NCBI GenBank assembly: GCA_001557505.1 | Contig: LSAX01000002.1 | Span: forward strand, 124,001-188,000 | Length of the DNA: 64,000 nt | Source of the DNA: Reticulascus tulasneorum | Taxonomy: Eukaryota > Ascomycota > Sordariomycetes > Glomerellales > Reticulascaceae | Direction of reading: 5' to 3' | Shown: positions 5,000-63,331 of the stretch, in pieces | How positions within the stretch are numbered: the stretch's first letter is position 1 | How the letters are laid out: each line of letters begins with the position of its first letter | Translations under genes and position numbers: made by a program | The notes under the pieces: model-generated | What the model was told of the DNA's origin: nothing | Database searches by the model: none | The model's input: only the letters and a program-made list of their open reading frames with translations

Positions 5000-6117
5000 C
5001 TACATGAGAACGACAGCTCTGCCAGAGAGCTTACGGTTGTGAGTCATCTCGGGCAGGGACTCGGCTTCGGCCAGTGGCACGCATGAGATGTGACTGCGCG
5101 TCTGGTGCTTAGCCACTAACTCCAGCATGTCCTCCATGTCGGGCACGCTCGAGTGAATAGAGCCCTTGATGACGAGTTTCGGAAGATAAGATTCATGGCA
5201 TCAAAGGTTAGCCCTGTGACAGGCAGACCAAGCAGCATGGCGGTGCCCCGTGGCTGCAGCTGGTGCAGGATCCAGTCGTTGGCCTCGGAGCTATCGGTGC
5301 TGACGACGGTGGTGGCCAGGCCGATGCCGCCAGTGAAATCGAGAATCTGCTGCGCGGCGTCCGCCCCATTCCGGTTGACGTACAAGTCCGGGCGCAAACC
5401 TTCGGGGATCATGTCGAGGTTAGAAGCCGTATCGCGACTGCCGACGGCCACCACGCGGTATCCCAACGCCTTGGCGAACTGGATACCCAGAATGCCGAGG
5501 CCACCAATGCCCACAGTGGCCATCGTGCACCCTCGGGGGCCTCCGCGGCGCCGATGGCAGACCAGATGGTGGCGCCAGCGCACGTTAGCGGCGCTGCCTG
5601 CTCAAAGGGCACGTTCTCAGGGATGCGCATGACGGCGTCGTCCTCGGTCAACATATACTCGGCGAAGCCGCCGTCGGCTTTGCTGATGCCGCCCATGGCC
5701 TTGTTCTTGCAATATCGCGGATTAAATGCGCCCTCGTGTGTTGAGGCGTACCACTTGCAGTCGGCGCACTCGCCGCAGGGCTTCCGGAAGAGAAAGACGC
5801 CTACGCGGTCGCCGACTTTCCACTTGGGAGACACTTCGGGGCCCAGGGCTGCGATGGTGCCAACGGGCTCGTGAGACCCCGTGGCTGGGAGTTCGGTATG
5901 GTAGTCTCCCTGGTACACCTGGTAGTCGGTGTGGCAGAAGCTTGCGGCCACGATGCGGACCAGCACCTCGTTGGCACAGGGAGTAGGCGTGGGAATCTCT
6001 TCGAGTTTGTAATTCTCGTTAAACTAGAGGTTGCATTAGTATGGCTTGGAGTCTGAATATTGTGGAACTTACCTTCTTCAGCCGCAGGGCTTTCATCGTC
6101 TTGGGAACTGCGTCCAT
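5000..6117 (-). CDS. Zinc-dependent alcohol dehydrogenase (MDR family), two frameshifts
   Basis: Exon 1 (6117-6073, 15 codons) joins exon 2 (6023-5000) through a canonical 49-nt GTAAGT...CTAG intron. Corrected for frame, the protein would be about 356 residues, normal for AdhP-type enzymes that oxidise alcohols with NAD(P). The catalytic zinc motif FCHTD, a His-Glu GSHEPVG block, the structural zinc cysteines CGECADC...C and the GIGGLGILG nucleotide loop are all present. The frame breaks twice, near 5530-5532 and 5177-5179. Each break is repaired by adding one base to a three-base homopolymer, and the sequence stays well conserved on both sides. It is therefore either a very young pseudogene or an intact gene with two sequencing undercalls. 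The neighbours are a zinc-cluster regulator upstream and another MDR enzyme. Confidence 0.8.
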
Positions 6118-7030
6118 GGTGAAAAGTGAGGTCGGAGGGTGTCGTTGTAGTAAGCGCCGTCTGAGGAGGAAGTGGGACAAAGTCAACGGAAGTGGTGCAA
6201 TGCTAGTGGATATGGCATTGAAGGCAATCCACAGGAAAGGTCGAGGCTATTTTGTATTTCAATCCAATATCATCCGCGGCTAGAAGCAAACACCGGGCGG
6301 TCGTCATAGATCAAGTACGTGACTGAACGAGTATGATCGTCTACCGCCATGACTCCATCACCAATATGACGAAGCCCAATGCCATTGGCCGACAAGTGAA
6401 GGATTGTCATGCTCGTCTGCGAGGCTGGACATGTCTGGTATTGAGCAGGCTGCGATGCGATTCAGGCGGCGCAAGCGAAAGGGCTAGACAAGCGTATGGC
6501 GCGAGCCCAGGAAAGAACCTTGACCTGGTAGTCCACCTCACTCCAAGAATAATCTGGCTCTCGGAACTTGCACAAGCCGAGCTTGGGCGCCCCACCGCTG
6601 CACCACTGTCGTGCGCAGGGCGATATCAACGAGTGGGGCGATATCAACGAGTGGGGCGAGATAAACGAGTTAGGCGAGCTCAACGGGCTTCATGAGGCGA
6701 ATGGCAGTAAGTATACGCCTCGGATTTGTAAATGCATTATTGAAGAGACGTCATGTTGTGGGACGAAGTGAGGTCGTGTCTAAGTCCCAGGTATCATGTT
6801 CTGTTTACACTGAATAGCAACACAAGAGTATAAAGCAATGTCAACCTTGGCCGAGAGGAGAATCACTTTGAACATGCTTAAACACCAGATCGAAGCAACT
6901 TTGCACCCACCCGTAACAACTCTGCCTTAGGAAAGCACCCAGCACATTGGCGACATTGCCTATTATTAAGATAGACGAATGAAACACGAAGAAGGCGAAC
7001 CAGAAAAAGCAGCATTGCTTGTCTCCGAAA
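6118..7030. other. Divergent intergenic region with a minisatellite
   Basis: This 913-bp region separates the divergent starts of the alcohol dehydrogenase (minus) and the trans-acting enoyl-reductase-like gene (plus), so it should hold both promoters. The only distinct feature is the 18-bp tandem repeat at 6618-6689. No further gene was seen. Confidence 0.5.
6618..6689. repeat. 18-bp minisatellite, four units
   Basis: Two perfect units of GGGCGATATCAACGAGTG (6618-6653) are followed by two diverged units to 6689. The period is a multiple of three and the translation is open, but there is no surrounding gene, so I treat it as non-coding. Confidence 0.85.
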
Positions 7031-20700: not shown

Positions 20701-21277
20701 CTTGTGGACATAGATGCAGAGTTAATCAACGGCGGCGGCACCAGAATCAAGCCCAGTAATTCATGAGCCTAAACTGGGGTCCGGACATTTGTCCTGAAAA
20801 GGCACTTTCATTATGGTCGAGGGAATGAAATCTGGCTTTATGGCTGCCCAGACGCTCGCCACCCGAATCACCCTAAAGCAACAGCAGCTCTGGAAAATGC
20901 ACATGCCAATTTCTGAGGCAACCCCGTGCGTGATGCAAAGTGCTGTTGCACCTGATGTGACAATCTGGCTATGCGTGTTGGTATTAGGTCATGATGTAAC
21001 GAAAGACACTTTCCCCTTCACTATGACATGTCCCAAACGCCAGCAAGGTGCAGGATCCTAGACACCAGCTAAACCAGGATGATGTGGACAGCCTTTACTA
21101 CATGCGCGCCCCTAGGAAATGCGCCAGCCCTTGCGTATGTCCCATTCCGGCATAGTTCAGCCACAGCTGGAGTGAAGCCTTTGCAACGTTCTCGACTCAA
21201 ACCAACCCCGCTTTGTCACTCAAAGAACACCGCAAAATCATAGTCGTGTGGTTTATCAATCGACCACCCAAAACAGA
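20701..21277. other. Intergenic, nothing recognised
   Basis: This is 577 bp containing the promoter of the HET-domain gene. No clear TATA box, repeat or coding frame of interest. Confidence 0.4.
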
Positions 21278-23164
21278 ATGGCCAGTCGATACACATACTC
21301 GTACCTTGGCACTGGCTACATTCGGCTTCTGCATATACTCTCCGTGGCGCCGGAGATCCGCCTTCGGGTCAAGGTGGTCTCTCTTGAGACACTCCCCACA
21401 TACAATGCGCTATCGTACCTCTGGGGTCCTGATGCCCCGTTCAAGCGCATCATAATTGAGCGCGATTCTACCGACATCGAGGACCAGTATGTTGATATTG
21501 CAAGAAACCTCTCGATCTGTCTCTCCCATCTGGAAGGATTTGTCGGTACAGACATCTGGGTCGATGCTCTATGTATAAACCAGACGGACGACGAGGAAAA
21601 GTCCCGCCAAATCCACGCCATGACGTCGGTATATGGGCAAGCGACCAATGTGCTGATTTGGCTGGGCCCTAGTGCTGACGATAGCGATTGGGCCATGGAT
21701 GGCATTGTCCGATACGGCAAGCCGGCACTCGGGGCCGGGCTGTTGAACTTGCAGCGTGAGGACCTGAGCAAGTGGCCTGACATCGGTAATGATGTTGAGC
21801 GCCTAAAGACAAAGGACGCAGTACTGGCTCTCATGTCCACGGCCTCGGAGAGCGAGGGGAGTAGCGATATGGTCAACGAGCGCTTCCCTCGAGTAGCCTT
21901 TGCGGCGTTGACTCATAGACAATACTTCAACCGTGTCTGGGTCAAGCAGGAAATCACGCTCGCACGTAGCGCGGTGGTCATGTGCGGCCATAAGTTCGTA
22001 GGGGTGGAGGTTTTCCACGCGGCGGCCATGTTTTACGGCATGTTGATGACATGGGAGACTGGCGAATGGCGGGCTGGTAGACACACCCGGATCCCGGGTC
22101 CGTTTTCTGAGGCCATGCTGATGGCTACGTTGACGCCTTGGGATCTGATCAAGACGACCGTAGCTAACCCGGCCGTGGGTCCATTCTTCGCCGCCCGGAA
22201 GAAGTATCAGCTGAGTCCGCAGAGGCAGCCTCTGCATGAACTTCTCCACACGTCGTACGTAAGGAGTGGCGCAATTGGTTTGCAATGCAAAGAGCCTAGA
22301 GACAAGATATTCGGGCTTCTCGGGATTGCGAGTGATGCAGACGATCTAGGCGTTCATGCGGACTGCTCGAAGACTGCGGAGGAGGTCTACGAGGCGGTTG
22401 CCAGGGCGTTGATCACGAAACAGGGCCACGTCGACATTCTGAAGTGGTGCCGTTCCCGACGAGTCGATCCTCCGACATGGGTTCCAGACTTCAATGCTGA
22501 TATCGCGTACACGTGGACTGACGAGGTAGGAACTCCGCTATTCAAAGCCGCAGGGTCTACGTCGCAGCCCCAAGACCCCAGCGGTATATATCCGACAAAG
22601 GGGACAATTCATCTCCAGGGTATCAGTCTCGATGCTGTCATCACCGTGGGCTCCGCTTTCACCCACGACAGGGACAAATCGTTTGATCAAACGGCTTTAG
22701 TACAGATGTTCAAAGAGCTCGCCTCGTTTCTGGAGAAGTCGATATATCCCGAGAAGGATTGGGTCGATGCCGTCTGGCGCATCCCGATATGCGATAGAGA
22801 AATGCATCCCACATCGATGTACTTTGTACGTGCTACCGAGCGCTCAAAAGAGCAATTTAGTGCACTTCTTAGCAAGGTCATGGGCGGAGATGTCATGGCC
22901 CAGACCATGTCTTATCAGGCTTCCATGCAGTATCAGGATGGCGCACGGCCAATCCTGTCTGAGAAGGGGTATGTAGGGTTAGCATCGAGTGAAGCTCAAC
23001 CGGGGGATGTTGTTTGTCTCTTATTTGGCGGCTCGACGCCTTTCCTTCTGAGACCTATGGAAACAGGTGCTTTTTTCCTTGTTGGGGAGGCGTACGTCTA
23101 CGGTATTATGGATGGAGAATTGATGCAGACTGACTTTTCTACAAGCACCTTTGAGTTGCGGTAG
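21278..23164 (+). CDS. HET-domain (heterokaryon incompatibility) protein
   Basis: An intronless 628-residue protein starting at ATG 21278. The HET domain occupies about residues 35-190. It has the YNALSYLWG opening, the IWVDALCINQTDDEEKSRQI block and the YGQATNVLIWLGP block, the three signatures of PF06985. The region after it has HRQYFNRVWVKQEI, a further conserved HET element (normally R..FxRxWxxQE). The C-terminal half has the CKEPRDKIFGLLGIASDA segment typical of long fungal HET proteins. HET-domain proteins trigger cell death after non-self fusion or act in related immune responses. No STAND, ankyrin or WD40 region is attached. The gene looks intact. Confidence 0.92.
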   Translation: MASRYTYSYLGTGYIRLLHILSVAPEIRLRVKVVSLETLPTYNALSYLWGPDAPFKRIIIERDSTDIEDQYVDIARNLSICLSHLEGFVGTDIWVDALCINQTDDEEKSRQIHAMTSVYGQATNVLIWLGPSADDSDWAMDGIVRYGKPALGAGLLNLQREDLSKWPDIGNDVERLKTKDAVLALMSTASESEGSSDMVNERFPRVAFAALTHRQYFNRVWVKQEITLARSAVVMCGHKFVGVEVFHAAAMFYGMLMTWETGEWRAGRHTRIPGPFSEAMLMATLTPWDLIKTTVANPAVGPFFAARKKYQLSPQRQPLHELLHTSYVRSGAIGLQCKEPRDKIFGLLGIASDADDLGVHADCSKTAEEVYEAVARALITKQGHVDILKWCRSRRVDPPTWVPDFNADIAYTWTDEVGTPLFKAAGSTSQPQDPSGIYPTKGTIHLQGISLDAVITVGSAFTHDRDKSFDQTALVQMFKELASFLEKSIYPEKDWVDAVWRIPICDREMHPTSMYFVRATERSKEQFSALLSKVMGGDVMAQTMSYQASMQYQDGARPILSEKGYVGLASSEAQPGDVVCLLFGGSTPFLLRPMETGAFFLVGEAYVYGIMDGELMQTDFSTSTFELR

Positions 23165-46283: not shown

Positions 46284-47967
46284 CTATAAATCAATATCTG
46301 CCGAAGATGACCCTATCTGGACGCTCAAAGTCTCGGGAGCCGCGACTGTGAATCGAACGCCAATAGAAGGAAACAAGTCTTGGAATCTAGAGTAGACCAA
46401 GCTTAACTCCTCTTTTAATTGTCTCTGACTATTGCCAGTGATAAGATTTAAGGAGAAGCTGACTGGGATCAGCGTAATATCCTTGAGGTTACGGAGCTTC
46501 AGTTGGCAGCCCTGGTAGAGGTCGTGCAATGTATTGTCCATGAATTGTGGGGGGGTTGAGTCGAATATAAACTCCGGGAAGAAATCCTCGCCATTGTAGA
46601 CTCCCCAGTAATCGCTAAGTTCGAGGGTGGCAAGGGAAGGAGGTAAAATATTACTGATATGAAAATTGATCAAGCCACTGTCTCTTCCAAAAACGAATAT
46701 AGCCTCCGTAGCCAAGTGATTTAGTTTCGACATTTGCCCCAGGTCTGGGGTCAGAAAAGGTGGGATGACAGGTCTTTTCCATGACTCTCCTAGAGATGTT
46801 GCCAAAGTAAAGGATGTTAAAGTCCGCTTAAGGGTGGTAAGGTCCCGTGAAAAGGAGTCAAAGTCCGCCCACTGAAAGTGTGCTGAGCCATCCAAGAGTT
46901 CTATCTGCAACGTACGTAGCCTCGGGAAACCCTTGACAAGGTGCGGCATTGTGGCGTGAGGGAAGAGCCCCCTGAAAATACGTAGTTCCACAATCTGCAA
47001 CGATATCGCCGGGGTCGTAGGTGTTAAACCGTTGGTAGTCAGAACCCCAAGTGATGGAGCGCCTTTGGTATCGATCCTACGAAGTGATCGGGAGTTTCGC
47101 AAAAAGCGCCTTATAAAATAGGCTGGCGCATATACCCGAACAAAGTTATCCTCATGCGGTTCAAGTATAAGCACTTGGAGATCTTGTAAGAACCGGGTGC
47201 CAGGCGGATCACTGAAATCCCAGTGATGATGTGGAGCACTTGGTCCAGAACGTCTGGTCCCAGACCCAGCTACCGTAGTGCCCGCATCATACTCGTCGTA
47301 GAGGCGAGGACAGAGGAGCTTTAAAAGAGGTTCATGTTCCGGTACGGTTGGGTGAGGTGGCGATCCCCGGAAATTCGGCTCTACCCCCTTTTCTCTATAA
47401 CACTGTTATCTTGAGAGACCAGGGTGAATTGCTTCGATTGTTCGGTACTCTAGCTAGCAATCGGTGGTTGCGAGGCTTTATTCGTTCACTTTTCTGGCTT
47501 GGTATCTTATCAATCGATGGTATTAATACCGAGATGACAGAAAGGACCACTCGCGAGTTTATGCTGGCCGCAGCTGAGGGCTGGGAGGTGATGAATTGGC
47601 CCCGTGACGAAGACGACTTGCTCATTTCCTGGCTCTCAGGGTTGGGCAGTTCTGACACCTGGGATGCCGCAAGTCTTCTCGCGGCCACCCTCGCGATGAC
47701 GACCAAGCTGAAGTCGCTCTTCCTAAGTCTTGGCGCCGTATGGCCTCCCGGGGTCGCAGCCTGGTGCAGCCAGTGGCAAACCAAACAAGCTTATGCCAGC
47801 GCCGATCTTGATTCTAGGTAGTTGGAACATAGCCGCTGTCTTGAGGCGGTCGACTCGTATGTAGTAATAGGCCCAGCGGGTCCGAGGTGGCCTATGATTT
47901 TGTCAACAAGCTCGGCCGGCAAGGTAGTGAAGTTTGTCGTTAGCAGAGCGGCTTGGCGGCTACACAT
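46284..47967 (-). pseudogene. F-box/LRR protein gene disrupted by an internal inversion
   Basis: The minus strand begins at ATG 47967 with an F-box-like N-terminus (TLPAELVDKIIGHL) and ends with about 330 codons of LRR-like sequence (EPLLKLLCPRLYDEYD, then FLQDLQVLILEPHED, and FPRLRTLQIELLD) down to the stop at 46284. The middle third (PPFLYNTVILRDQGELL through AATLAMTTKLKSLFLSLG) is present, but on the plus strand at 47341-47823. Reading the flipped segment joins it in frame to the C-terminal part across the left breakpoint. One TAG (47819-47821) and a one-base offset at the other junction remain. F-box proteins recruit substrates to SCF ubiquitin ligases; this copy is non-functional. Confidence 0.6.
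47341..47823 (+). other. Inverted segment of the F-box gene
   Basis: About 483 bp whose coding sense is on the plus strand inside a minus-strand gene. ATGTTCC (47334-47340) on the left and GGAACAT (47824-47830) on the right form a perfect 7-bp inverted repeat exactly at the points where the coding strand changes. Confidence 0.6.
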
Positions 47968-48859: not shown

Positions 48860-51800
48860 ATGAAAGAGCCATCAACGAGCAAAGTACAATTCACACCGCT
48901 CCACAATGCGGCCTTGGACGGCGATGTCCGGGCAATCAAAATGCTGCTCGAAGGAAACGCCGATGTTGATGCGCGATATGAGGACAGTTGGTCGCCTCTC
49001 CATTACGCAGCAAGTTACGGCCATACCAAAGCCATTCAGGCCTTGCTTCGCGGGAAAGCCCAAACTAGCTCCAGAACTGAGTCGGGGGATTCTCCGCTTC
49101 ATCTTGCAGCAAGGAACGGTCATGCCGATGCTGTTACAGCTCTGTTGAATGGTAAGGCCGAGGCTGAGAGCCGAAACGAGAGCCAACAGACACCTCTCCA
49201 CCTTGCAGCACGTCGTGGCCATGTCGATGCTATCAAGGCTCTGCTGAGCCGCAAAGCCGACGTTGACAGTCGAGACAACAACCAGCAGACACCTCTCCAT
49301 ATTTCAGTCCACGAGGGCCATAGTGAAGCGGTAAAGGCTTTGCTGAAGAGGATGGCCGATGTGAATGCCCAGGATGAGGACCAGTGGGCGCCACTTCACT
49401 TCGCAGCCCTGATGGGCTTTGCAAAAGCAACCAAGATTCTCCTCGCTGGAGGGGCTGTTGTTGATCTGCATAGCCGTGCTCAGTCCACGCCGCTTCAGAT
49501 TGCGGCTAAACATGGCCATGTGGAAATCATTGGACTCTTGGTGGATGCGAAAGCATCATTGGAGAGTCAAGATAAAAACCAATGGACCCCTCTTCATCAT
49601 GCGGCAAAAGCTGGGCAGAAAGAGGCGATCAGGGCTTTAATTAGCAAGGGGGCTGATGTTAGCGCTCGCAACAAGTGTCAGTGGACACCACTTCATGTCG
49701 CGGCAGGGAATGGGCGCGACAAGGCCGTGTCGGCACTACTCGAGGGTGAGAGCGAGGTAGATGCTCAAGAGGAAGACAAGTGGACCGCTCTGCACCTTGC
49801 GGCACAGAATGGCCACATCGAGACCATACGAGTTTTAGTTCATGCAGGGGCCAGAGTAGAGGCTCAGACAGCTGCCCAGCACACTGCCCTCCATATAGCA
49901 GCAAAAAATGGGCAATCCGTAGCAATCACAGCTTTGATAGCCGATGGAAGGGCTGAGGTTAATGCGCGAAACAAGGACGAGTCAACGCCTCTCCATCTTG
50001 CCGCACAGAATGGTCACCCGGAGGCTATAAAGGTTCTATTCCAGGCAAAAACTGAAGTGGAAGCTCGCACAAAGTACCATAACACAGCTCTACATGTGGC
50101 GGCTAGAAGCGGTCAAGCTGCGGCAATCACGGCCTTGATAGTCAACGCAAAGGCTGATGTCGAGACACGAAACAAAGAGCAGTCGACGCCTCTTCACCTG
50201 GCAGCACAGAATAACCACGTGGAGGCGATAAAGGCCCTAGTTCAAGCCAAAGCATATACTGGCGCGCGGAATAAAGACCAGTGGACGCCTCTTTACACTG
50301 CAGCATGGAATGGCAAGGCTCAAGCAGTCACAGCTCTGCTTCAAGCGAACTCGGAAATAAACGCCAGAACCACAATGCTAAACACCCCCCTCCATGGGGC
50401 AGCACAGGGTGGCCATGTTGAAGTAATTAGCATCCTGCTGGAAGGCAAGGCTGAAGTCGACTCGCAAGATAAAGATATGCGAACCCCTCTGCATCTCGCA
50501 GCGCAAAATGACCAGGCCGAAGCAATTAAACTGCTAGTCAGAAGAAAGGCAAAGGTCGATGCTCGAGATAAGGACCAGCGGACACCTTTACACCTTGCAG
50601 CCGGCAGTCAAAGCACAACCAAAGCGATTACAGCTTTACTTCAAGCGGGAGCGAGCGTTGATGCACAAGACATTCAAAAAAGGACGGCACTACATATTGC
50701 AGCGGAGAACGGCTACATCGATGCTATCTGGGTTCTACTAGGAGCCAAGGCAGACGTTGATGCCCGGGACCAAGCCAGCTGGACACCTCTCTACCTTGCA
50801 GCACAAAACAACCGTGCTGAGGCGATTAGGGCTCTCATCAAGGCAAAGGCAAATATCGAAGCCAAAGATAAAGACCAGCGCACTCCTCTTCATATCGCAG
50901 CCAGCAGCAGCAGCGATACAGCTGTTACAGCCCTAGCAGATGCAAAGGCCAACGTCAATGCGCGGGATAAAGATCAATCAACGCCCCTTCATCATGCGGC
51001 AAAGAGTGGCTCAGCAGCGGTAAAAGCTTTACTTGGCAGAAAAGCTGATATTGGTGCTCGAAACAAGGACCAATGGACTCCGCTCCATCTTGCAGCGCAA
51101 TACGGTCATGCTATAGCAGTTTCGACCTTGGTAGATGCAAATGCCGAAGTCGATGCTCGTAGTGAGAGCAGTCGGACCCCTCTTCATATCGCAGCTTATA
51201 ATGGCCAAGCCGAGGCCATCAGGGTTTTACTCCCAAAGGCTAAAGTGAATGCTCGAGATAAAGAACAATGGTCCTCCCTTCACTTTGCGGCGCAGAAAGG
51301 CCATGTTAAAGCTATTGGGGTTCTAATTCAAGCAATGGCCGACGTAGAAGCTCTCTCAATGCAGCAGCATACTGCTCTCCATATTGCAGCACTAAATGGT
51401 CAATCGGCAGCAATTACAGCTCTGCTTAAGGCAAAGGCTAACCTCAGTGCCCAAAATGGGATTCTCCGAACACCTCTTCATCTCGCAGCGCAAAATGGTC
51501 ACGTCGAAGCTTGTACGGTCTTGTTACGTGCAGGGGCAGATGCCAACGCCCAAGATGAAATTCAGGTGGCGCCTCTTCACATGGCAGCACGAAACAATCA
51601 CGTCAAAGTAATTGCTATACTAGTTGATGCGAAGGCTAGAGTTGACGCGCAAAACAAAAACCTATTGACGCCTCTACATTCTGCAGCGGGGAGCGGAAAG
51701 GCTCAAGCGATCAAAGCTCTCCTCGACGGCGGCGCTACAGTTGATCCAACGACAGCCTTGCAGAAAACGCCACTTCTGATGGCAGCCCAGAACGGTCACT

Positions 51801-54800
51801 CCGAGGCGATCGCTGCTCTCCTTCAAGCAAATCCAGAAGTGAACGCTAGAACCGCGACATTGAGCTCGCCGCTACATTTGGCGGCGCAGGGTGGCCATGT
51901 TGAAGCGGTCAATATTCTTCTTCTCGACGGGAGGATTGATGTCGAATCCCAAAACAAAGAGCAGCAAACCCCTCTCCATCTCGCAGCACAAAACAACCAT
52001 GCTGAAGTCATTGAGGCTCTAGTGAAAAGGAAAGCGGAAGTTGGTCCTCGAGACAGGCAGCAACGGACCCCCATTTACCTTGCAGCGCAAAATGGCCACG
52101 CTCAGGCTATTGAGACTCTACTCAAGGCCAAAGCCAGATTTGAGGCCGAAACAGCATATCGATATACTCCTCTTCATATCGCAGCAAACAATGGCCACTC
52201 AGCAGCAATCGTGGCAATGATCAGTGCGAAGGCTGAAGTTGATATACGAGCTGAAGATCAGTCAACCCCCTTACACCTTGCCGCACAGAATGGTCACCAA
52301 GACGCGCTCAAGGCTTTGCTCAGATCAAGGGCCGACCCGGACGCCAAAACAAAGTCGCAGGATACACCACTGCACAGAGCGGCGAAACATGGCCGCATCG
52401 AAGCGATCAGGATATTACTGGATGGAAAATCAAGTCCTAATGCTCGCAACAAAGACGAAAGAACACCGCTCCACCTTGCTGCGCACCATGGCCACGCTGA
52501 AGCGATAGATCCCCTACTTGAGGTAACGGCAGCTCAATCCGGTACATTGGATAAATACCAATGGACACCTCTTCACCTAGCGGCAAAGAGTGGTCATGAT
52601 AAAGCTATCCAGACTTTGCTCAAATTAAAAGCTGATGTAAACGCACGAGGACAGTTTAAGCAGACGCCGCTTCACCTTGCGGTCAAGAATGCCCATGCCG
52701 GGGCTATATGGGCTCTTCTAGATGGAAAAGCCGACGTCAACGCTCAAGATAACAGTCAAAGAACTCCGCTTCATCTAGCCGTGCTGCAAGGCCTTATTGA
52801 GCCTGCCGAAATCTTGCTTATCAGAAATGCTAATACTGATTCTCTGGATAAGCAGCAAAGCACTCCGCTTCACATCGCATCAATGAAAGGGTATATCGAG
52901 GCAGTTAGACTCCTGATTAAACATAAGGCCAAAGTCAACGCCAAGGGCCAAAATCAATACACACCACTCCATGTTGCAGCGGAATACGGGCATGTCGACG
53001 CGATCACAGTTTTGGCAAATGCAAAAGCCGAGGTTGATGCTCAAAGCAGAACTCAAGAGGCACCTCTCCATGTCGCAGCAAAGAAAGATCACGCGGAAGC
53101 GATCACAGCTCTTGTTAGTTCGGGGGCTGACGTCAACGTGCGGGATAGCAAAGACCACCGTACCCCTCTCCATGTCGCATCTGGAGAAGGCAACGTGGCA
53201 GCGATCATAGCACTAGCGGACGCAAGCGCGGACGTTGATGCCAGAGATAAAGACCGGTCAACCCCGCTCCATCATGCGGCGAAGAGTGGAAAGCAGGAGT
53301 CAATCAAAACGTTGCTGGGAAGAAATGCCGATGCCGGTGCCCGGAATAAGGACCGATGGACTCCTCTTCACATCGCGGCACGGTATGGCCATGTAACGGC
53401 GATTGCAGCGCTAGTGGCCGCGAATTCCGACGTCAATGCTCGAAGTGAGGGTACTTTGGTAATGCCTCTTCACCTGTCAGCAGAACACGGCCAAAGCGAA
53501 GGCACAAAGGCTCTACTAAAGTCAAAAGCTATAGTAGATGCTCAAGATAGCGAGCTCCGAACACCGCTCCATCTTGCAGCCAAAAATGGCTGCACCGAAA
53601 CCATAGCTGCCCTCTTGGAGAAAAATGCCGATGTCAATTCTCGAAATAAAGTCCAATGGACGCCACTCCATATGGTGGCGCAGAACGGCCACGCCGAGGC
53701 CATCAAGGCCTTGCTCGCTGCGGGGGCCGTGGTTGATGCTTGCAATAAGGGCAAAAACACTCCTCTTCATCTTGCGGCACAGAGTGGCCACGCTATAGCT
53801 GTTAAGGCCCTACTTGAGGCAAAAGCCGCGACCAGCTCTCAAAACAGACAGAAATGGACAGCCTTGCACCTCGCAGCTCAGAATGGCCATACTGAGGCTA
53901 CGAAGGCTCTTATAGATGGGAAGGCCGAGATCGATGCTCGAGACCAAGACCAGTGGACGCCTCTCCATGCTGCGGCACAAAGCGGCCAGGCAAAGACTGT
54001 TCGAGCATTACTGAGAGCCGGCGCCAAAGTTGGAGCTCGAGATAAACACTTGGGGACGCCTCTCCATATCGCGGCTCAAAACGGTCACGTTGATGTCCTT
54101 AAAGCTTTACTCAAAAGAAAGGCTGAGATTGAAGCTCGGAACGTAGATCAGCGCCTGCCTCTCCATGTTGCCGCACAGAATGGTCACGTCGGGGCTGTCG
54201 AGGCCTTGCTGGGAGGAAGCTCGGACGCCGCAACGGTCACCGGGCACCTGCCAGGTAGCAGACTCGGCCATGCAGCCGTTGACACGCAGCAGCGCACGCC
54301 GCTGCATTGGGCTGCATTGAATGGACATGACTTGGTGGCAAGATTGCTGGTTGAGAAGGGGGCCAATGTTACCGTACTTGACGAAAATCAGCAGACGCCG
54401 CTGCAACTAGCAGAGAAGGAGGGCCACAGCTCAGCGGTAAGCTACTTGAGTCGGAAGAGGTCCGATGCCGCAATTGCGGACGAGTTTACGACATCCGGAG
54501 CGCCAATACAGGATCCAGCTATGCTGTCGACGTCTCCGATAGGGAATTCTTCCGACAGGTAAGCATCGTTAACTTGCTTTCAAAATTTGTTACTTACTCT
54601 TAGGTAGTCGAAGGGCTTCGGAACGGTGGCTATCCAGACTAGACGAGTTGAATGAAGAGTTGGAAAGGCACCACCAAGAAAATGGCGATTCTGCTTTAAG
54701 CAATCAACCTCGAATCAAGGTTGCGATTCTCGACACGGGGCTTGATGATTCGGCCCCATTTTTTCACTTTCGCCGGCAGCCGAGATGGAAAGATTTTGTG

Positions 54801-55622
54801 GAGAACCACTCAACTTATACCGACCAAGACGGACACGGTACCCACTTGGCGTCCTTGCTGATGAGGCTAGCTCCGGACGCCGAGATCTGCGTTGCACGGG
54901 TAGCGAGCGGATCGGATACACTTGAAACGGCTGCCGAAAACATCGAAAAGGTATTATAACCTGGGAGACGAGGATGGATGAGAAAACGGTATCAGAGCAG
55001 CTGACATGGTTCGCAGGCAATTCAGTGGGCTGCCGAAGAAATAAAAGCCGACATAGTTTCGATGTCGTTCGGATTCAGCGGGGAGCCTCTCGTCAACGGA
55101 GTGCCGGTCATCAGCAGAGCTATCAGAGCAGCGGTGCAAAATCGAAACGGACGCATTCTCTTCTTCGCGGCGGCGGCAAACGACGGCGCGAATCGGGAGG
55201 TAATGTTCCCGGCAGACCACGAGTCGGTCATTTCCGTCCGAGCCACGGACAGCTATGGGGCTTTCGCCACGTTAAATCCCCCACCAACAGACGAAGAGGG
55301 AGTCATGTATGGGACGCTAGGCATAGAAGTGCCGGGGTCATCGTTGGTGGAGGATCAGGACTGGATTGCGTACAAATCCGGCTGCTCGATGGCGACGGCA
55401 ATAGCGGCGGGCACGGCCGCCATGCTCCTTGGCTACGCCTGCGGCATGTCGGGAGGGCAAGAGTTGCAGGCCATCTGCGATGAGCTGAGAACCCGACGGG
55501 GGATGAGGTCGCTGCTTAAGAGAATCGCGACGGATATGGGCAGGCGGCGCCTTTACTTTACGCCATCCCGCCTTTTAGGGAAGTCGCACGCTCGGCACCG
55601 GGCGCTCATCATGAGTATATGA
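48860..55622 (+). CDS. Giant ankyrin-repeat protein fused to a C-terminal subtilisin-like (S8) protease
   Basis: Three exons, 48860-54558, 54608-54950 and 55017-55622, are joined in phase (2, 0) by canonical short introns and encode 2,215 residues. Residues from about 10 to 1870 are about 56 consecutive 33-residue ankyrin repeats of near-consensus TPLHLAAQNGH..AI.ALL..KA.VDAR type. After a linker (SERWLSRLDELNEELE) comes an S8 protease domain with the whole catalytic set: D1942 (AILDTGLD), H1976 (GHGTHLASLL), oxyanion N2069 (AAANDG) and S2138 (SGCSMATAIAAG; Cys replaces the usual Thr before Ser). No signal peptide or propeptide is seen, so it is an intracellular protease held on a sensor scaffold. 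Fungal S8 and caspase-like proteases attached to repeat or NLR-like parts are known partners of gasdermin-like killers. The next gene, 145 bp away and convergent, fits that role. Confidence 0.9.
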
Positions 55623-55767
55623 GGCGCGTGTCGGCCCGTTGATCTTTGTTAGCTGGTCTTTTCATTGAACTTTACATATCCATAATATGCCGTTGTGCTA
55701 GGTTGTCCGGATTCTATTGAAATGACAAGTCTTGATAATTCGCTTTTGAGGGCTCTGTATGCAACAT

Positions 55768-56616
55768 CTATCCGCTGAATGAAATGCACATCTCGCCATT
55801 GTCAGTCTCGTACATGGTGACGGCAGCACCATCATCGGCGCTTGTGATATCAGCTGTCGAGGCAACATCTAGACCCTCGACTACTAATGGGTCCTCTTTT
55901 CTCCTCTCATCACCATCACCTTGTCCAAGATACGCAGCTTTAGTTACATAATCTTTGACTTCGACATTGCCCCTTCTCTTCAGGGATATTTTCATCACCT
56001 CATATGCGAAGACGACATCCCCACCAGATTTAAATTCGTCCGTCTCTGTATTCTCGGAAAACCCTTCAACGCCTGCGCCGACCGATATGTCCGGCGTGAC
56101 AGGCGCACCCAGCTCCACACCACCAGCATGTCGCCTATCACGCCCGCTCGAGATGGAGAGGCTCTTTGCGATCTTCAAGCCCGTGATGATATATAAGGGC
56201 TTGAAGCTTCCAAAACCAAGGGCTCCGCTCTTGATAGCTGCCTGGATTCGGGGATTATTCAGCCTTGCGGCGATTTCTTCTTCGCTAGGTACTGTCTTGA
56301 AATATCGTGTTTCGAGACATGTCATAGTGCATTGCATGCGACTTTCAACATTTCTCTCCGCGGTGATTTTCGCAGAGGCTATTAGCAAAAACTGTGCCCA
56401 CACAGACAGTTTCCCGCCCCGTCGCTTGCCCCGCTCAAGACTGTAGTCGTGGTCTAGAAAGGTCTCGATTTGGCTCGGATCGAGCTTGTCAGGGTCCAGG
56501 GCATCGAGGACTCTGTGAGGCCGGAAGGGGTTCGCAAGGATGTTACCCAATGCTATGGGCCCGTCTGGCTTAAACGTGAAGTTGGGGGCGAGGAGGTATG
56601 ATTTAACCAGCGCCAT
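55768..56616 (-). CDS. Candidate fungal gasdermin-like (HET-Q1/RCD-1-type) protein
   Basis: An intronless 282-residue protein starting at ATG 56616. The N-terminus SYLLAPNFTFKPDGPIALGNI followed by PFRPHRVL, the central LYIITGLKIAKSL strand, a Gly-rich GGVELGAPVTPDISVGAG hairpin, and DVVFAYEVMKI belong to a widespread ascomycete family. I associate this family with gasdermin-like pore formers such as Podospora HET-Q1 (278 residues). A flexible acidic tail of about 50 residues follows KAAYL at about 226-230. In HET-Q1 a similar short tail is removed by a subtilisin-like protease to release killing activity. It is convergent with the ankyrin-S8 protease gene, 145 bp apart. The gasdermin assignment is from memory of family patterns and gene context, not from a search. 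If wrong, it is a conserved fungal protein of unknown function. Confidence 0.5.
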   Translation of the reverse strand: MALVKSYLLAPNFTFKPDGPIALGNILANPFRPHRVLDALDPDKLDPSQIETFLDHDYSLERGKRRGGKLSVWAQFLLIASAKITAERNVESRMQCTMTCLETRYFKTVPSEEEIAARLNNPRIQAAIKSGALGFGSFKPLYIITGLKIAKSLSISSGRDRRHAGGVELGAPVTPDISVGAGVEGFSENTETDEFKSGGDVVFAYEVMKISLKRRGNVEVKDYVTKAAYLGQGDGDERRKEDPLVVEGLDVASTADITSADDGAAVTMYETDNGEMCISFSG

Positions 56617-61579: not shown

Positions 61580-63331
61580 ATGACCATCACCCCTATTCTA
61601 AGGCCGGCGCTGGTCCTCCTGGCGACCGCAACTCTCGTCAATGCTGGTCCTCGCATGCTTGCTCCAATTCAAGACATCAATCTGCCATCCAGTGAAAGTG
61701 CAACAAGCCCTCTTCAGCATTTGGGCGCAAACAGCCCATGGTTTGCAGGTGTGCTTTACGTCGACTCCAGGTGGTGGCTCGGCTCTCAAATCTGACCGCG
61801 TCCAGGTCCGAATGTGCATAACATCTCTCCGGAGGTCCCTGAAAACTGCTACATTGACCAAGTAGCATCTACCTCTAGGCATGGCTCGCGATATCCTGAC
61901 CAAGGCGCCCATGATGGCTGGGTGGCGATGCAAAACCGTGTAGGTCTAGATCGTGGTCTCGAGCCAACACTGCGTCTCTAATTCGAACCAGTTCCAATAC
62001 GGTAATTATACAGCCTCCGGCAGTCTTTCATTCATACCGACGTGGCACACGCCTCTCACAAATCTCCCCCTCCAGATTGCGATGGAGAGTCCGACCGGAT
62101 ACAAGGAAAGTTATGATCTGGGATATACAATGAGAACCAGGTACTATGTTCAGGGAGGCACAATTGTAGGCACTCACTGACGTCGCTAACGTGTAGATAT
62201 CCCAACCTCTACACCGAAGGAGACGAATTCCTCGTGTGGGCTAACAACTACACACGCGTTCTTCAGACCGCGAAGATGTTTATGCGCGGCTTCCTCGGGG
62301 ACAACGCTGCACTTTACGGAAAGGTTGTGTCTGTCACATCCAGAGGGTTCCCGGCTGGCATCGGCGACTCCCTCGGACCATCCGACATGTGTCCAAACTT
62401 CAAAGATGTCAACGGCGGGGACCCAGGAACCACATGGAATGATATTTATATTCCCCCGATCATGGAACGCCTTCAGACTCTGATCGATGGGAATCTGACT
62501 CTCGTTTCGGCCGACATAACATCGATTCCTTACATATGCGGGTTCGAAAGCCAAATCACTGGGCGACTATCTTCATTCTGCGACGTCTTCAACGATGAGG
62601 AATTGCTGGATTTTGAGTATGCTCAGGATCTGCGGTACTGGTACGGAGTCGGACCTGGGAGTGGCTTGCCCGCTACGATCATGACACCGTACTTGAATTC
62701 TATCATGGCACTTTTGACCCAAGGGCCTGGTATCAATGGCACTCGGGCCGATGGCAGCCAGTTCGAGGTGCCGCGGCTCATCATGTCGTTCCTGAATGAT
62801 GGCCAATTGAATGAACTTGTCGCAGCCAGCGGGGTGTTCGATGAGCAGGCCCCTCTCCTGGGCACCGATAGAGATGATGGCAGGCTCTACGTCAGTAGTC
62901 GGTTCACGACACAGAGGGGGACTATTGCATTCGAACGACTCAACTGCGTTGTTTCTGGGGATGACACAACCAGCGCTACATCGCAGACTGCTCAGCCTAC
63001 TGCTAGCCCAACGTCGTCTGGCGTGACCTCGAGGACATGCCAGAGACGCCCTGCATCTACTGCAACACCACTGCCGGGAGGTCTTCGGAATGCGACCTTT
63101 ATCCGTATTCGACTAAATGATGCGGTCTATCCGGTACCATTCTGCAAGAGTGGGCCAGGATCCTCGTGTCTTCTAGATGATTATACCAAGTATGTGACTG
63201 AAAAACTGGCATCGCAAGGAAACTGGATTACGAACTGCAATGTTACAACCCCTGGGGCTCCCACAATGGCTAAAGGGGCCAGCTTCTATACCGATCTTAC
63301 GGTGCCGTGGGTACAAACCATTGCGCCGTAG
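61580..63331 (+). CDS. Secreted histidine acid phosphatase (phytase-like)
   Basis: Four exons, 61580-61748, 61806-61939, 61992-62140 and 62197-63331, are all joined in phase and give 528 residues. Residues 1-22 are a signal peptide (LLATATLVNA). The catalytic motif is RHGSRYP with R81 and H82. YTRVLQTAKMFMRGF and CGFESQITG are further family blocks. The proton-donor site, usually His-Asp, reads FLNDGQL (N351-D352), so the His is replaced by Asn. A Ser/Thr-rich linker (about 420-450) precedes a C-terminal block with FIRIRLNDAVYPVPFC. The enzyme should release phosphate from organic phosphates outside the cell. The His-to-Asn change may not matter, since Asp is the acid, but it is unusual. The gene is otherwise intact. 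Confidence 0.88.

Follow-up and report, generated by a model that had tools for sequence, protein, structure and literature searches.

A giant ankyrin-repeat S8 protease gene convergent with a gasdermin gene: a probable cell-death unit in Reticulascus tulasneorum

A pair of convergent genes in the ascomycete Reticulascus tulasneorum very probably constitutes a fungal cell-death unit of the Q2L-protease/fungal-gasdermin kind, in which a giant ankyrin-S8 protein would be the dedicated activator of the gasdermin encoded next to it. The pair lies in a 64,000-nucleotide stretch of contig LSAX01000002.1 (the window, to which unprefixed coordinates refer). The first gene encodes a complete protease domain, the product of the second has a gasdermin fold, and the pairing of the two families is conserved in other fungi. 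By analogy with characterised systems, the ankyrin-S8 protein would sense through its repeats and cleave its paired gasdermin, with death of the cell ensuing.

The ankyrin-S8 gene, of the Q2L type, occupies positions 48860..55622 of the forward strand, with its ATG at 48860 and a stop codon ending at 55622. The spliced gene model has three exons (48860-54558, 54608-54950 and 55017-55622), separated by introns at 54559-54607 and 54951-55016, and encodes 2215 amino acids. For intron 1, an acceptor four bases earlier would bring a stop after residue 1900, and the one chosen keeps the frame; splicing preserves a single frame, and the coding sequence before and after intron 2 is homologous to S8 proteases. 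The Peptidase_S8 domain (PF00082, E 3.8e-25) covers residues 1936-2162 (54714..55460, forward strand, split by intron 2). Its conservation was examined in an alignment of 115 S8 domains, comprising that of the window and those of 114 of the 120 relatives listed. The catalytic aspartate D1942 (codon 54732..54734), placed by its motif position, is D in all 115, six relatives without that motif having been left out beforehand, whilst the catalytic histidine H1976 (54834..54836) and the asparagine N2069 are likewise invariant (115/115). S2138 (55386..55388), which the sequence-only reading had proposed as the catalytic serine, stands at the motif position and is S in 112 of the 115 domains, the others being two gaps and one F. 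The protease domain is complete and its catalytic residues are intact.

Most of the protein is an ankyrin array of 56 repeats, located at residues 9-1875 (48884..54484, forward strand; Pfam Ank_2/Ank, E = 0), in agreement with the earlier proposal of an S8 protease fused to about 56 repeats. Motif search gave 53 of these; the other three, whose motifs are variant, were recognised by eye. The repeats start directly at the N-terminus, and a linker joins the array to the S8 domain. Of the 56 repeats, 46 span 33 residues, seven span 34 and two span 32, with a single step of 47. The repeats are diverged rather than near-identical, the 46 of exactly 33 residues having a mean pairwise identity of 42% and a best pair of 67%. 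Recent block duplication was rejected as the origin of the array, four-repeat blocks being no more alike than shuffled ones (78 of 200 shuffles as high) in a test that used fixed 33-residue cuts, which blocks with length changes may escape. Pfam searches, run to E 0.01 on residues 1-1899 and to E 1 on residues 1895-2215, returned ankyrin and S8 models only, with no NACHT or NB-ARC domain in the protein as modelled, upstream of which further exons may lie. A 157-amino-acid frame at 47348-47818, considered as a hidden N-terminal domain 5' of the array, has no Pfam match and was set aside.

The gasdermin gene (55768..56616, reverse strand) is a single exon encoding 282 amino acids, and its start agrees with those of its homologues. 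The gene models place 145 bp between the two stops, the distance given by the sequence-only reading. A Pfam scan of the 282-residue protein found no match even at E 1, so that Pfam alone would have missed its identity, and a search with the single sequence reached HET-Q1 at 0.083 only. A profile of 54 gasdermin-family sequences, by contrast, matched RCD-1-2 (1e-13), RCD-1-1 (2.3e-11) and HET-Q1 (1.7e-5). The predicted structure and fold searches gave a gasdermin pore-domain fold, the closest solved folds being those of RCD-1-1 and RCD-1-2; the HET-Q1 pore chain, matched by the sequence profile, is absent among the fold-search matches listed. The protein had been called gasdermin-like from its letters, and an unrelated fold had been named beforehand as the outcome that would count against this; the prediction was run and, together with the profile, it upholds the identity and eliminates the possibility of a protein unrelated to gasdermins. 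Elsewhere in the window, some 26 kb away from the pair, is a HET-domain gene (21248-23161, forward strand; PF06985, E 1.7e-25); a histidine phosphatase of branch 2 is encoded at 62234-63331 (forward strand; PF00328, E 3.1e-28).

The predicted structure and aligned ranges assign residues 1-214 (55975..56616, reverse strand) to the pore-forming domain. A linker follows at residues 216-244 (55885..55971, reverse strand), the candidate cleavage region, with pLDDT below 50 at residues 216-234 and, at residues 231-244, a segment of net negative charge in all 54 aligned family members. Residues 245-282 (55771..55884, reverse strand), with predicted strands and a short helix, form a C-terminal element that may be an inhibitory tail, a role suggested by HET-Q1. 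Structure prediction and charge count thus reveal both a C-terminal tail and an acidic linker of low confidence; the flexible tail that had been noticed earlier fits the low-confidence stretch followed by this short element. The S8 protease would be expected to cut the disordered linker by analogy with HET-Q1/HET-Q2, and Y229 (55930..55932, reverse strand) is a reasonable candidate for the P1 residue because 47 of 54 family members have F or Y in its column, 50 of 54 have the leucine after it and all 54 have the acidic segment. Y229 may be likened to F238 of HET-Q1, a projection in which F238 falls about seven residues beyond Y229 by ungapped count, chain numbers being taken as residue numbers.

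Under the proposed mechanism, a C-terminal tail of some 40-55 residues would keep the gasdermin inactive in the cytosol until the ankyrin solenoid meets a trigger, whereupon the attached S8 protease would cut the gasdermin in its linker near residues 216-244, possibly after Y229. Loss of the tail would then allow the pore domain to oligomerise in the plasma membrane, killing the cell or hyphal compartment. That the array senses a cue is suggested by the architecture of the protein.

In Podospora anserina, the gasdermin HET-Q1 is cut at F238, losing 40 residues, and death ensues (PMC10989679). Its cleavage by HET-Q2 has been tested, het-Q1 and het-Q2 being idiomorphs, that is, alternative genes at one locus (PMC12881547). 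That system resembles the present pair in combining an S8 protease with a gasdermin that carries a short C-terminal tail and is of similar size (278 amino acids as against 282 here), but HET-Q2 is a protease of 388 amino acids and not a giant ankyrin fusion (PMC10989679). The literature on these systems (PMC10197012, PMC12881547, PMC10989679, PMC11138114) puts the share of fungal gasdermin genes that cluster with a protease gene at about 80%, and with an S8 protease at about 63% (PMC10197012). The gasdermin-linked protease often carries fused ankyrin, TPR or WD40 repeats, and the published reading of such gene pairs is that of a sensor, a protease and a pore former (PMC10197012, PMC12881547, PMC10989679). 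Q2L proteases are S8 (or CHAT) proteases with intact catalytic residues, encoded less than 10 kb from a gasdermin gene, in which a repeat- or NLR-type sensor is common and not required. Here the distance is 145 bp and the repeat region fused to the protease consists of the 56 ankyrin repeats. The Q2L protease/fGSDM clusters of Clave et al. 2022, as the reviews report them, likewise have a protease gene adjoining a gasdermin gene, the member in the window having 56 repeats. The locus belongs to a system already described, and a sensor and protease in a single protein is not new, because fusion of ankyrins to the protease is among the architectures reported for Q2L proteins; the earlier suggestion that both sit in one giant protein paired with a pore former is supported, at the level of analogy, by its agreement with the published reading. 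RCD-1-1 and RCD-1-2 of Neurospora crassa, the best profile matches, differ in that their activation comes from two allelic variants present together and not from cleavage. Bacterial gasdermin/protease operons also place a pore former beside a protease (reviews, including PMC10197012), but they are prokaryotic and distant in sequence, with weak profile similarity to the window gasdermin (E 0.04-0.08).

Lack of conserved adjacency in other genomes had also been named beforehand as counting against the proposal; adjacency was in fact seen in other fungi and again in the same genome. Pairing in other species was judged from locus tags and contig sizes rather than from DNA. Four species have consecutive gasdermin/S8 tags (Glutinoglossum, Sarea, Colletotrichum and Trichoglossum, with FGG08_005308/005307, M1819_003533/003534, EsH8_II_001162/001163 and GP486_003623/003622) and two have close tags (Ophiocordyceps and Trichoderma, with XA68_17161/17164 and V8C40DRAFT_248018/248013). 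For Fusarium longipes the gasdermin and S8 protein are matched by equal-sized contigs only, and the Mollisiaceae gasdermin is on a different contig from the S8 match listed for that family. Among the 120 of 373 S8 matches listed, at least seven of 56 gasdermin relatives have a same-species S8 match on an equal-sized contig. Over nine pairs, gasdermin and S8 distances are correlated (Spearman 0.87; 3 of 5000 permutations as high), as they are without the second pair of this genome (0.74; 67 of 5000), an agreement that partly reflects species relatedness. The Trichoglossum hirsutum pair consists, like that of the window, of an ankyrin-S8 protein (GP486_003622, 484 amino acids) and a gasdermin (GP486_003623, 276 amino acids), but its ankyrin array is short. 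In Glutinoglossum and Sarea, the S8 domains of the paired proteins (P0061 and P0068) are 48-49% identical to that of the window, and their tags adjoin the gasdermins nearest to the window's among those with an assigned organism; these proteins differ in having an N-terminal DUF7580 domain (PF24476) where the window protein has ankyrins. Another gasdermin relative, P0001, encoded on a contig of 40 kb, is 56% identical to the window gasdermin.

The genome (42.8 Mb, 35 contigs) contains a second pair. Four gasdermins (that of the window, its paralogue, P0054 and P0048) served in turn as query, and every search gave two identical places and nothing else, the second being on contig C2 near 3.95 Mb, where the gasdermin (L002:1285-2205, reverse strand) is convergent with an S8 gene (ankyrin frame and S8 exons, L033:6755-9040, forward strand), with 193 bp between stops. 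The frame upstream of the S8 exons has seven ankyrin profile matches, the last only seven residues long, and probably forms one gene with them; all four motifs (D, H, N and S) are retained in the S8 domain. Additional ankyrin frames are found close by, at L033:2851-3978 and 5511-6251. Both clear gasdermin genes of the genome (2/2) thus end less than 200 bp from an S8 gene. The S8 repertoire is large, the PF00082 genome search giving at least 100 match rows (203 candidates, 90 scored), and we estimate the likelihood of chance adjacency at 1-2% per gasdermin, given random placement of 100 to 200 S8 loci; together, the second pair and the recurring pairs in other fungi dispose of chance adjacency as an explanation.

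A search with the window S8 domain (E up to 1e-3) found five places: the two pairs, C2:1.99 Mb, C6:0.24 Mb and C25:0.87 Mb. The gasdermin family profile (E 1e-3, about 10 kb at each place) found no gasdermin near C2:1995613, C25:870023 (both taken from that search) or C6:207500-217400 (taken from the PF00082 list). At the C2 place (L051:2194-5528, forward strand), a frame close to the S8 domain has a very faint match to an ankyrin repeat (E 0.0013, which does not pass the cut-off); the 337-amino-acid frame upstream has no clear family, and no gasdermin match was found at this locus. On C6 near 0.24 Mb, S8 and DUF7580 frames occur together (L050:4240-7398, reverse strand), and divergent from them is a 280-amino-acid frame (L050:7829-8671, forward strand) with an acidic C-terminal region, starting 430 bp from the next upstream frame, which is assumed to be part of the S8/DUF7580 gene. 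The family profile, with its threshold of E 1e-3, missed this frame, which had no match in a PDB sequence search, matched the gasdermin profile weakly by hhalign (probability 11.8%, E 0.0025), scored 8.1 bits with a widened profile, where none of 1000 residue shuffles exceeded 4.3, and gave a single-sequence AF2 model of pLDDT 32.5. It is possibly a very diverged gasdermin, and the locus a third S8/gasdermin pair. Beside it, at L050:1-1698, are NLR-like nucleotide-binding frames, named by eye.

Could the two neighbours be functionally unrelated, the ankyrin-S8 protein having other targets and the gasdermin answering to another protease or to RCD-1-like mixing of partners? Cleavage of this gasdermin by this S8 protease is argued from analogy, RCD-1 itself is not controlled by cleavage, S8 loci are many in this genome (at least 100 match rows), and at least one S8 relative, that at C2:1.99 Mb, showed no gasdermin neighbour, which counts against a dedicated pair. 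Against this, both clear gasdermin genes have an S8 gene less than 200 bp from their ends, where chance would give 1-2% for each, and the pairing recurs in other fungi, leaving us to consider unrelated neighbours very improbable. Less remote, if still improbable, is a heterokaryon-incompatibility locus, polymorphic between strains and killing mixed cells after hyphal fusion in the manner of het-Q1/het-Q2. The Podospora precedent and the presence of the HET-domain gene in the same window speak for it, but het-Q1 and het-Q2 are idiomorphs at one locus whereas here both genes are together in one genome, and a review places by far the most fungal gasdermins outside allorecognition.

As for the role of the repeats, the array could be a scaffold, or a spring keeping the protease off the gasdermin, rather than a ligand sensor; it is very long and its repeats are diverged, and the second pair has about seven repeats, so that 56 are not required for a pair to exist. 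Ankyrin repeats, however, commonly serve in binding, and the most variable repeat positions of the array are 1, 3, 19 and 23, positions of the kind that face outward, although this pattern is typical of ankyrins generally. We regard a scaffold or spring as rather unlikely, and favour a sensor.

How the fusion arose may be approached through the S8-domain tree (FastTree), in which ankyrin fusions are scattered and form no single group. The window S8 domain is in a group of 38 (support 0.68), nested in one of 48 (0.93), and DUF7580 is present in 14 of 14 listed members of the group that holds it; this placement is the least certain in the tree. The Trichoglossum ankyrin-S8 protein clusters not with the window but with two DUF7580 proteins, P0131 and P0162 (support 0.997), and Saxophila P0088 with two other DUF7580 proteins (0.94), the S8 domain of the second pair being outside. 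Because the ankyrin fusions are apart, the tree suggests that ankyrins were fused to the S8 protease several times independently. None of the 16 proteins of 1218-3876 residues that matched the 2215-residue query has ankyrin models, the only close one being a 1342-amino-acid DUF7580-S8 protein from Fusarium; only proteins with five-residue words in common with the query can be found in this way, and further giants may be concealed where gene predictions are split. Shorter S8 relatives with ankyrin models are two among the 120 matches listed (P0088 and P0155). Size is, on these sequence comparisons, the standout feature of the ankyrin-S8 protein, an unusually long member of a described cell-death system. 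We recognised no description of an ankyrin array of such size in the titles and abstract openings returned by searches of one open-access library, which does not prove its absence.

The stimuli for the diverse sensors of fungal death pathways have been called a major open question (PMC12881547). With two apparent ankyrin-S8/gasdermin pairs in one genome, of about seven and 56 repeats, the role of the array becomes open to a comparative test, and the S8 tree suggests repeated sensor swaps on a protease-gasdermin core. It is possible, though we hold it only tentatively, that this core is a conserved death switch with an exchangeable sensor module, that DUF7580 was here replaced by ankyrins which grew to 56 repeats, and that the result may be a giant single-protein receptor, watching several cues or holding several gasdermins, in place of an inflammasome.
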